A stretch of 64,000 nucleotides of DNA from Zeimonas sediminis (lineage in GTDB: Bacteria > Pseudomonadota > Gammaproteobacteria > Burkholderiales > Burkholderiaceae_E), in NCBI RefSeq assembly GCF_023721795.1, contig NZ_JAMQYE010000001.1, forward strand, positions 3,073,671 to 3,137,670. Direction: 5' to 3'. The position numbers and the translations under genes were made by a program. Positions 29,169 through 33,069 of this stretch are shown here, piece by piece. Below the pieces are notes generated by a model. It made no database searches. It saw nothing but the letters and a program-made list of their open reading frames with translations, and was not told the origin of the DNA. Each line of letters begins with the position of its first letter. Position 1 is the stretch's first letter.

Positions 29169-30263
<1,095 letters not shown>

Positions 30264-30364
30264 TGGGAAAGGCTCCAGGCGGGCCGCGAGCCGGCGCGCG
30301 GTCGTGCTGCGCGCCGAGCGGCCGAAATCGTCGAAACCGCGATTGTCTCAGGTTCGCGCAATGT

Positions 30365-30675
30365 GCCGGGTCGCGGGGGCGGGGCGGGCGGACCGACCCG
30401 CGCCGTGTCGGGTTTGAAGAGCTCGTCGGGCGGCGGTCGCGGCTTCCCGCGCCGTGTGCAAGCCGAGCGCCACCGAAAGAAATTTCGCGGGACCCGCTCG
30501 CCGCGGGGCGAAGCCCCCTGCGAGGCGGGTGCGAAATTTCGAGGTGGGCGAGGGAAGCCCCGCCGAAGGCGGGGCCGCAGCACCCGGCGCGGGAAGCCGC
30601 GACCGCCGCCCGACGAGCCCGCCCCGGCAGGTCGAGGCGCGGCTCAGTCCGCCCGCCCCGCTCCCGCGACCCGGC
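30365..30675. repeat. About 311-bp nested imperfect palindrome (possible REP/MITE-like element)
   Basis: Three pairs of inverted arms share a common centre near 30515: outer arms 30366-30393 with 30647-30674 (28 bp, one mismatch), middle arms 30421-30454 with 30585-30618 (34 bp, perfect) and inner arms 30479-30488 with 30531-30540 (GAAATTTCGC, perfect). An extra hairpin (AGCCCCGCC-GAA-GGCGGGGC) lies in the right half near 30556-30574. The element fills the gap between ychF and the MaoC-Pta gene, and its right end contains the last ten or so codons and stop of that gene. It has no credible coding content. Confidence 0.85.
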
Positions 30676-32080
30676 TGGCCCCATGCGCGCGCCACCAGTC
30701 GTGCAGCTGCGCCAGCGCGCAAGACACCAGCCGCGACCGTGCGTCGTCCGCCCGGCTGGTCAGCATCACCGGCACCTGCGCGCCGAGCACCAGCCCCGCC
30801 GCCTCGGCATGCGCGAGGAACACCAGCTCCTTGGCCAGCATGTTCCCGGATTCGAGGTTCGGCACGATCAGCACCTGCGCGCGGCCGGCCACCAGCGAGG
30901 CGATGCCCTTGGTGCGCGCGGCCCGCAGGTCAACCGCGTTGTCCATCGCCAGCGGGCCGTCGACAAGGCCGCCGGTGATCTGGCCGCGCTCGGCCATCTT
31001 CGACAGCACCGCCGCGTCGATCGTCGAAGGGATCGCCGGCGTGACCGTCTCGACCGCCGACAGCACGCCGACCCGCGGCTCGGCCAGGCCGCAGGCGCGC
31101 GCCAGGTCGATCGCGTTCTGCACGATGTCGACCTTCTCCTCGAGGCCGGGGGCGATGTTGATCGCCGCGTCGGAAACGAACAGCGGGTCGGCCATGCCGG
31201 GCAAGTCCAGCACGTAGACGTGGCTGATCCGGCGGTTGGTCCGCAGGCCGCCGGTGCGGCGTACCACCGCGGAGAGCAGCGCGTCGGTGTGCAGGTGCCC
31301 CTTCATCAGCGCGCGCACCCGGCCCTCGTGGACCAGCGCCACCGCGCGGGCGGCGGCCTCGTCGTCGTGCGCGACGTCGATGATGTCCACGCCTTCGAGA
31401 TCGCGCCCAAGTCCAGCCGCGACTTCGCGGATCGCCGAAGCAGGGCCGACCAGCACTGGCGCGATCAGGCCGGCGTCGCGCGCCTGCAGCGCGCCCTCGA
31501 GCGAATCCGGATCGTCGGGACTCACGACCGCGGTCGGCAGCGCGGGCAGCCCCGCGCAGGCGGCGAGCAGCCGGTCGAAATGCTCGTGCCGGCGAACCAG
31601 CACGTCGGGCAGCTCGGCGTTCGCGATCTCGATCCGGCGTGCCGGCGCGAACACCTCGGCCTGCCCCTCGGCGATCGACTGCCCGCCGGAGGCGCCGCCC
31701 AGCCGTTCGATCCGGGTGTCGAGCAGCAGCAGCCGCGGCTCGCGCTTGTCGACCACGGTGACCGTGACCTGCAGCTCGTCGCCGACCCGCGCGCGATCGC
31801 GGAACACCAGGGTCTGGGCACGGTAGAGCGCGCCGGGGCCCGGCAGCCGCGTGCCGATCACGTTGCCGATCAGCGAGGCGAGCCACATCGACGGCGCGAC
31901 CGCGCCGGTGCCAGGGTCGCCGTCGGTGTCGAAGCGCGCTTCCAGGTCGGGCAGGTTGGCCGGGTTCAGGTTGCCCGACACGTTGGCGAAGACGTACAGG
32001 TCGGACTCGGTGCAGACGCGGCGGATGCTCGCGCTGTCGCCGATCGCGATCTCGTCGAACAGGCGGTTGGTCAGCTTCAT
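30644..32080 (-). CDS. Fused MaoC-like dehydratase / phosphate acetyl(butyryl)transferase
   Basis: A 478-aa two-domain protein. Residues about 1-150 are a MaoC-like hot-dog domain (FDEIAIGDSASIRRVCTESD, YVFANVSGNLNPAN). Residues about 170-470 are a phosphotransacetylase domain with VLVGPASAIREVAAGLG, MKGHLHTDALLSAVV, FVSDAAINIAPGLEEK and GQVPVMLTSRADDARSRLVSCALA-type endings. The same fusion is annotated elsewhere as bifunctional enoyl-CoA hydratase/phosphate acetyltransferase. It could interconvert acyl-CoA and acyl phosphate. No acetate kinase follows, unlike typical loci. The last codons fall in the palindromic element, so the final residues (GASRVAGAGRAD) may be foreign. Confidence 0.85.
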   Translation of the reverse strand: MKLTNRLFDEIAIGDSASIRRVCTESDLYVFANVSGNLNPANLPDLEARFDTDGDPGTGAVAPSMWLASLIGNVIGTRLPGPGALYRAQTLVFRDRARVGDELQVTVTVVDKREPRLLLLDTRIERLGGASGGQSIAEGQAEVFAPARRIEIANAELPDVLVRRHEHFDRLLAACAGLPALPTAVVSPDDPDSLEGALQARDAGLIAPVLVGPASAIREVAAGLGRDLEGVDIIDVAHDDEAAARAVALVHEGRVRALMKGHLHTDALLSAVVRRTGGLRTNRRISHVYVLDLPGMADPLFVSDAAINIAPGLEEKVDIVQNAIDLARACGLAEPRVGVLSAVETVTPAIPSTIDAAVLSKMAERGQITGGLVDGPLAMDNAVDLRAARTKGIASLVAGRAQVLIVPNLESGNMLAKELVFLAHAEAAGLVLGAQVPVMLTSRADDARSRLVSCALAQLHDWWRAHGASRVAGAGRAD

Positions 32081-32103
32081 GGCGGCAATGCTACGCTTTC
32101 CGG

Positions 32104-33069
32104 ATGCCCGCAAGCCTTGACGGAAAACTGGTCGTCGCGATCTCGTCGCGCGCTGTCTTCGACTTCGAGGAGGAGAACCGCGTCTTCGAGCGGGACGACG
32201 ACGCCGCGTACATGGCGCTGCAGCGCGAGCGGCTCGACCTGCCGGCGCAGCCCGGCGTGGCCTGGGCGCTCGTGCGCAAGCTGCTGCAGTTCGACCCGCC
32301 CGACCGGCTCGAGCGCGACCGACGGGTCGAGGTGGTGGTCGTCTCTCGCAACGATCCGGTCAGCGGGCTGCGGGTGTTCCGCTCGGCGGCCAGCGCCGGG
32401 CTTCGGCTCGAACGGGGCGTGTTCACCCGCGGGCGCGCGCCCTGGCGCTACCTGGCGCCGCTGAAGGCCAACCTGTTCCTGTCGGCCAACTCCGACGACG
32501 TGCGCGCCGCGCTGGCCGCGGGGATCCCGGCCGCGCGGGTGTTCCCGGAGTCGGTGAAGGCGTCCGAGTCGCATCCCGACGAGATCCGGATCGCCTTCGA
32601 CGGCGACGCGGTGCTGTTCTCCGACGAGTCCGAGCGCGTGTTCCAGGCAGGCGGGCTCGACGCCTTCCAGCGCCACGAGGCGGCGCACGCCGAGCTGCCG
32701 CTGCCGCCGGGTCCCTTCAAGCCGCTGCTCGAGGCGCTGCACAGGCTGCAGCGCGAGAGCGAGGTCGCGGACCCCGGCGTGGGCGCCGAGATGGCGGTGG
32801 TGGTGCCGATGCGCATTCGCACCGCGCTGGTCACCGCGCGCAGCGCGCCGGCGCACGAGCGCGCGATCCGCACACTGATGCACTGGGGCATCGAGGTCGA
32901 CGAGGCGCTGTTCCTCGGCGGGCTGGCCAAGGGCCCGTTCCTGAAGGAGTTCGAGCCCGACTTCTTCTTCGACGACCAGACCGGCCACTGCGAGTCGGCG
33001 GCGCAGGTGGCGCCCGCGGGGCACGTGCCGGCGGGCGTGGCGAACGAGGGCCGAGAAGGCCAAGGCTGA
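32104..33069 (+). CDS. 5'-nucleotidase (PF06189-like, cytosolic NT5C1 family)
   Basis: A 321-aa protein starting KLVVAISSRAVFDFEEENRVF, the characteristic opening of this HAD-like nucleotidase family. Further family segments are LERDRRVEVVVVSRNDPVSGLRVF, FLSANSDDVRAALAAGIPAA and RIAFDGDAVLFSDESERVFQ, with a late LGGLAKGPFLKEFEPDFFFDD carrying acidic metal ligands. It dephosphorylates nucleoside 5'-monophosphates in the cytoplasm. It is divergent from the MaoC-Pta gene with only 23 bp between starts. Confidence 0.85.
   Translation: MPASLDGKLVVAISSRAVFDFEEENRVFERDDDAAYMALQRERLDLPAQPGVAWALVRKLLQFDPPDRLERDRRVEVVVVSRNDPVSGLRVFRSAASAGLRLERGVFTRGRAPWRYLAPLKANLFLSANSDDVRAALAAGIPAARVFPESVKASESHPDEIRIAFDGDAVLFSDESERVFQAGGLDAFQRHEAAHAELPLPPGPFKPLLEALHRLQRESEVADPGVGAEMAVVVPMRIRTALVTARSAPAHERAIRTLMHWGIEVDEALFLGGLAKGPFLKEFEPDFFFDDQTGHCESAAQVAPAGHVPAGVANEGREGQG

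Follow-up and report, generated by a model that had tools for sequence, protein, structure and literature searches.

How does a nested palindrome of about 311 bp come to lie at the 3′ end of a gene, and what keeps its arms complementary? The question is raised by a locus (positions 30365 to 30675) in a 64,000-nucleotide stretch of the Zeimonas sediminis genome, the whole of which is referred to here as the window. The palindrome reported in an initial annotation of this DNA is real, and its arms lie where they had been placed, around one shared centre. The outer arms (30365–30404 and 30636–30675, 40 nt) are 93% complementary, the inner pair (30421–30459 and 30580–30618, 39 nt) is 97% complementary, and a 10-bp stem, GAAATTTCGC / GCGAAATTTC, is nested inside both; the two arm pairs top the inverted-repeat list of the whole window at a distance limit of 400. 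Folding bears out the suspected hairpin, with a 361-nt stretch giving -289.7 kcal/mol versus -200.8 on average (sd 6.4) in 100 dinucleotide-shuffled sequences (z -13.8), and the 129-nt core folded alone giving z -5.2.

The central part is a conserved core of type A (30456–30583, + strand), which scores 133.6 bits with covariance model R1 and comprises a closing stem, a three-way junction, a side hairpin and a tip module. The tip module (30479–30540, +) has the GAAATTTCGC/GCGAAATTTC stem with a GGG bulge and corresponds to helices 3–5 of the type-A alignment, and a type B tip is found in other copies; the side hairpin, GCCCCGCC-GAA-GGCGGGGC (30557–30575, +), is helix 6 of the same alignment and is also seen in the fold of the core alone. 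Flanking the core are copy-specific inner arms of 34 bp (30421–30454 and 30585–30618, both +), in which 34 of 34 pairs are Watson-Crick. The left outer arm repeats, in inverted orientation, the 3′ end of a Pta-domain gene (30644–32113, − strand; open reading frame with PF01515), whose last 32 nt (the stop codon, the nine codons before it and part of one more) lie inside the right outer arm. The ychF gene (29169–30263, − strand; open reading frame with PF06071) starts about 100 bp from the element, which is upstream of it. The Pta gene had been named MaoC-Pta; the Pta part of the name holds (PTA_PTB, residues 254–467 of 489), and the MaoC part is unconfirmed because PTA_PTB is the only Pfam domain found at E<=0.001. 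No sigma-70-type promoter or intrinsic terminator pattern was found in positions 30200–30800 of the window, and the intrinsic terminator reading was rejected on these grounds.

The palindrome had also been proposed to be a REP/MITE-like repeat, and a search of its own genome shows that it is multi-copy and dispersed rather than a single copy with identical flanks. Seven further places in this genome match the core in a DNA search, with 84–99% identity and E below 1e-20, and there are weaker pieces besides. Covariance models of type A (R1) and type B (R2) gave overlapping lists of 20 matches at E<=0.01 and 33 matches at E<=0.1, respectively. A curated list of 124 copies was compiled from covariance-model matches, leaving out weak ones such as 982784+ of Z. 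sediminis; 28 of the 124 are from Z. sediminis (genome G000), for which the working list has 29. The 982784+ copy was included in the flank, arm, placement and outer-flank analyses (sets of 55 and 53 copies) described below.

Among 41 genomes searched, 14 contain the repeat: 13 of the 18 of the same GTDB genus (counting Z. sediminis itself) and one of seven from elsewhere in the family. When 369 genomes sampled evenly across the class were searched with stricter filters, Z. sediminis gave the only match. A search of named genomes with an exact pattern yielded 24 stretches, from sources including Zeimonas arvi CC-CFT501 (G007), Lautropia, Burkholderiaceae and Burkholderiales MAGs, and a 'Limnobacter' MAG. 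We note that single MAG contigs labelled Pirellulales and Pseudomonadota carry copies (L074, JABWBD010000164.1, and L080, JAKOZZ010000242.1); these are possibly mis-binned Burkholderiaceae contigs. A phage or plasmid origin was rejected, with no blastn match for 211 bases of the repeat in plasmids and phages and none to one exact pattern of it in IMG/VR. A known RNA family was likewise rejected, as neither window positions 30000–31000 nor seven loci with other copies matched Rfam 15 at E<=1. We found no published description of the repeat in the open-access literature, and the family is apparently limited to the clade of Zeimonas arvi (Burkholderiaceae) and undescribed so far. Most of the 124 curated copies are single. 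Close pairs number 24, of which 23 are arranged (-,+), one (-,-) and none (+,-), so that nearly all close pairs are inverted doublets. One genome (G001) holds three copies in a row (L032/L113, 1430–2251), the middle one decayed and armless.

Each copy has a core of about 128 nt with a predicted three-way junction and one of two tip modules. The core is closed by a GTGC/GCAC stem and further contains a second stem (for example GCCACC/GGTGGC) with the conserved loop letters GAAAG and CGAGG, as well as a side hairpin (GCCCCGC..GCGGGGC); the tip is either type A (CGCGGGACCCG..) or type B (CTGTCTGAG..CGAGTT). In the type-A alignment (A3; 68 model matches, 49 distinct) 98.3% of cells are paired, as against 29–46% in slid controls, and both sides have changed in 32 of the 41 pairs; none of 500 shuffles reaches any of the five measures used. 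Covarying pairs occur in the cores of both types, and the earlier claim of a large structured hairpin is thus borne out.

The arms are near-perfectly complementary within a copy and unlike in sequence from copy to copy. The inner arms of the 55 copies from Z. sediminis and Z. arvi, one of which has no real arm, have a median length of 34 bp and contain 1819 Watson-Crick, 21 G-U, 4 A-C and 37 other pairs, many of these 37 being a recurrent A against G at one arm end. Arms are present in 28 of the 29 copies from the other genomes, with a median of 88 bp, 19 of at least 50 bp, and 30 G-U pairs to 12 A-C; the longest, at L129, is 165 bp with 98% complementarity. A pyrimidine mismatch between arm and core is seen by eye in many copies. 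Copying of the arms from elsewhere in the genome was rejected, since 26 Z. arvi arms are no commoner elsewhere than controls, with a mean of 2.15 places per arm, most of them the arm's own two, versus 2.84 for control 33-mers, as counted with 16-mers in 2.38 Mb of genome.

Between the inner and outer arms the Zeimonas copies have short conserved ends, TCCAGG on the left and CCGGGCG on the right, which are not complementary throughout; one Z. arvi copy (C3:421810) lies outside the analysed DNA and is not part of this layout comparison. The outer flanks of a copy match as inverted repeats better than flanks taken from different copies do, 24 of 53 exceeding the 95% point and 21 the 99% point of cross pairings, and the mean was matched by none of 5000 permutations, with 29 of the 53 copies not above the 95% point. 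Two Z. arvi copies (C7:59780 and C2:351456) are not in this set.

On the core strand G-U pairs outnumber A-C pairs (binomial p 0.0009 for Z. sediminis and Z. arvi, 0.008 for the other genomes). This excess is moderate evidence, because related copies are not independent, and it points to RNA-level selection of that strand. Together with the conserved loop letters and the placement of the copies it suggests that the core (+) strand may be selected as RNA.

Copies are placed at gene 3′ ends. Viewed from the core, the genes flanking the 55 copies are converging in 34 cases, both on the opposite strand in 12 and both on the same strand in eight, with one copy having no 3′ gene; no copy lies between diverging genes. 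By raw count, the 3′ neighbour is oriented towards the core in 46 of 54 copies. Gene calls for placement and coding overlap used a custom filter on G+C by codon position, and four copies in the placement set are overlapped by a called open reading frame.

At some loci an arm contains the coding end of a neighbouring gene. Among 19 loci examined, five (L001, L059, L065, L118 and L141) have a plausible gene whose coding end overlaps one arm only, by more than 10 nt, on the core's 3′ side; L039 and L119 are omitted from this count because of their doubtful genes. The sole 5′-side overlap is at L030, the Z. arvi counterpart of the window copy, in flipped orientation. Three genomes (G008, G004 and G013) have a copy between the same two converging genes, which we take to be PhoH-like and threonine-dehydratase-like. 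The C-terminus of the PhoH-like protein is SRLADYATDAL or SRLADFATDAL in these genomes and SRLADFAADAL in the Z. arvi ortholog, and the converging partner ends in APSP in G013, SPQSNRTDAL in G004 and PASRLADYATDAL in G008. The partner's terminal residues equal to the end of its PhoH-like neighbour number 11 in G008 and four in G004. Across genomes the PhoH gene is 93–96% and the core 89–93% identical, whereas the arms hardly align (z 1.9–2.6 versus shuffles), although they are 95–100% complementary within each genome; both arms have therefore been rewritten together. The coding copy at this site derives from the gene on the 3′ side of the core. The initial annotation had suggested that the element supplied a new C-terminus to the Pta gene. 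This holds for a gene in another genome, the PhoH partner in G008, and appears not to hold in the window, where the terminal SRVAGAGRAD is also found in Z. arvi, the only close relative with a readable gene end; we infer that the Pta gene is the source, not the recipient, of the outer arm.

Comparison of Z. sediminis with Z. arvi shows that the arms change in concert, that cores can invert, and that tips are exchanged. Of 21 site groups in Z. sediminis, 14 have both flanks in the analysed part of Z. arvi, 13 of them with a model match there and one with a remnant of 46–55 nt (2276513). At a fifteenth (2743726) the Z. arvi site, which matches L004, is read as a deletion scar and not as an empty site, because sequence resembling the right arm and the 3′ end remains. 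In Z. arvi the window site keeps its outer arms around an inner element that is inverted, and by coordinates two more sites (2028071 and 2157253) are inverted there. A gene between two element pairs is also inverted (Z. sediminis C1:1195118–1196828 versus Z. arvi C1:139584–141322), as if by recombination of inverted copies. At site 1214096 one of 35 arm columns differs and there are two gaps, and the tip is type B in Z. sediminis and type A in Z. arvi. Over 18 ortholog pairings and 578 arm columns, 78 columns have changed on both sides and 21 on one; one Z. arvi copy was used twice in these pairings, and the four Z. sediminis copies around the inverted gene were paired by assumption.

The three-copy array of G001 faces a 30-bp gap in Z. 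arvi. At the Z. sediminis counterpart of Z. arvi C1:384561 there is a different gene-like stretch, and at the G001 counterpart of L004 a different small open reading frame; for this reason neither gives insertion ends. No target-site duplication, for which a check had been advised, was seen at the three sites looked at, and no clean occupied/empty pair was found there.

We consider it somewhat probable that the family is a clade-restricted, dispersed, non-coding repeat in which a folded core with one of two interchangeable tips sits in a long hairpin stem private to each copy, the arms being rebuilt by hairpin-templated DNA synthesis. While the DNA is single-stranded in replication or repair, the core would fold into a hairpin, and the growing strand would copy the other arm by template switching or snap-back synthesis. 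Such copying could keep the arms perfect, lengthen them outward, usually over the flank on the 3′ side of the core, and sometimes invert the sequence between them. Copies may swap tip modules by recombination or gene conversion, and the + strand may also be selected as RNA, perhaps as a 3′-end or read-through structure between converging genes. Judged from sequence comparison, hairpin-templated synthesis appears to be the simplest account. Several observations stand against it: the TCCAGG and CCGGGCG ends should be complementary if copied outward from the inner arm, 29 of 53 copies have outer flanks that do not exceed the 95% point, the new arm sequence has no explained source (the 26 Z. arvi arms are not found elsewhere above controls), and a fixed donor side, the core's 3′ side, is unexpected from plain template switching.

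That donor side is better explained if the arms arise in the act of insertion. The core, present as RNA or as single-stranded DNA, would be joined to a nicked strand at a gene 3′ end, fold back and self-prime a copy of the flank on its 3′ side, such that every insertion would carry an inverted target duplication. The one-sided coding ends, on the core's 3′ side at five loci and on the 5′ side at one flipped ortholog, agree with this, as do the 3′-side source at the PhoH site and the lack of copies between diverging genes (0 of 55). However, we regard it as unlikely: neither Z. sediminis nor Z. arvi has RVT_1, no Y1 transposase is present in six of six genomes, comparison of occupied and empty sites yielded no clean inverted duplication, and orthologous sites differ in both arms and not just in the copied one. 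Insertion by self-priming thus has the better explanation of the donor side, albeit with neither an enzyme nor a clean empty site. A broader proposal, conceivable if doubtful, is that the core is self-priming: on insertion or replication it would write the adjoining gene end, inverted, onto its far side, build private near-perfect stems of up to 165 bp and be able to pass C-termini between unrelated converging genes.

Ordinary selection on an expressed structured RNA, its stem kept by compensatory mutations, would account for the covariation of the core and for the G-U excess (21 to 4 and 30 to 12). It fits poorly with the PhoH-site arms, which barely align between genomes in spite of a gene 93–96% and a core 89–93% identical and yet are 95–100% complementary within each, with the coding ends inside arms, and with the core inversion at the window site, and we think it quite improbable. 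Only a slim chance attaches to a transposition model, in which a transposase that escaped recognition carried a REPIN-like miniature element into palindromes already present at gene ends. The (-,+) arrangement of 23 of 24 close pairs and the placement downstream of genes, as described for REPs in PMC3733652, are what such an element would show, but there is no RAYT in six genomes, and stems with coding ends are unlikely as old targets. Core-less long hairpins are moreover rare, with 10 having arms of at least 14 bp and loops of up to 30 in about 0.97 Mb of Z. arvi, and the four of at least 18 bp all belong to a second hairpin family (see below). Finally, the longest arms are in MAGs or fragmented assemblies, some with contigs ending within the repeat, as fold-back chimaeras would be; the same architecture in the Z. 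sediminis genome (three contigs) and in the named strain Z. arvi CC-CFT501, the always central core and the sites common to several genomes make an assembly artefact extremely unlikely.

The second hairpin family has a conserved loop of about 23 nt (CCAAGCGAGTATCGGGGAGCG..) in perfect arms that are unlike between copies. Five copies with arms of 25–36 bp are present in Z. arvi (C1:22745–24988, C2:383740 and C3:221389; L169, L249 and L272), three of them in or between parts of one gene, presumably uvrA-like. Z. sediminis has three, with arms of 29, 22 and 0 bp (C2:215545, C1:274489 and C1:1075290; L309–L311), and the loop, with up to two mismatches, occurs in eight of the 41 genomes.

How perfect long RNA stems originate and are kept is an old question, for which template switching is a proposed answer (PMC8794818). 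Among the 124 curated natural copies, which combine a constant core with ever-changing perfect arms, some belong to the named strain Z. arvi CC-CFT501, and this would allow the process to be tracked directly. The family also shows a route by which a protein end can become an inverted copy of its neighbour's end.

The signs of the mobile kinds named in the initial annotation were not seen: RAYT (Y1_Tnp, PF01797) was found in none of six genomes, in a search whose control was positive in five of 14 named genomes, and the three sites looked at lack target-site duplications. A RAYT-driven REPIN was accordingly rejected. The reverse transcriptase domain RVT_1 is absent from Z. sediminis, Z. arvi, G001 and G008 and present in G004 and G006, and a retron or group II intron was rejected for the Z. 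sediminis genome on this basis. No MITE-type helper transposase was found among the two families searched, Y1_Tnp and RVT_1.

In its workings the repeat is like the REP/ERIC-type extragenic repeats, from which it departs in the lack of RAYT and in size. REP/REPIN sequences (the GTAG and CGTC super-families) are outlined in PMC3733652 and PMC3116915 as dispersed palindromes, mostly downstream of genes, often in inverted pairs and possibly active as RNA, and dispersed palindromes, gene 3′ placement and inverted pairs are also features of the repeat here. REP units differ in being 20–40 bp with conserved sequence and a tag, whereas here a core of about 128 nt sits in private arms of 30–165 bp, with no RAYT in six genomes and no GTAG or CGTC tag noticed by eye at the hairpin feet. 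ERIC, a 127-bp enterobacterial repeat described in PMC2229807 as an intergenic imperfect palindrome that may act in mRNA, is similar in these respects and in core size. The core has no blastn match in 20,395 E. coli records, and variable arms and two exchangeable tips do not appear in the passages of PMC2229807 that describe ERIC. The Rickettsia palindromic elements (RPE) are, according to the same source, palindromic repeats able to contribute coding sequence; they do so in frame inside genes, whereas here an arm is an inverted copy of a neighbour's 3′ end. Template switching at inverted repeats is credited with homogenising arms, inverting spacers, and both creating and maintaining stems (PMC8604942, PMC8794818), and traces of each kind are also present in this repeat. 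Template switching is, however, a mutation process and not an element; here it would act repeatedly on one family, with arms of up to 165 bp.
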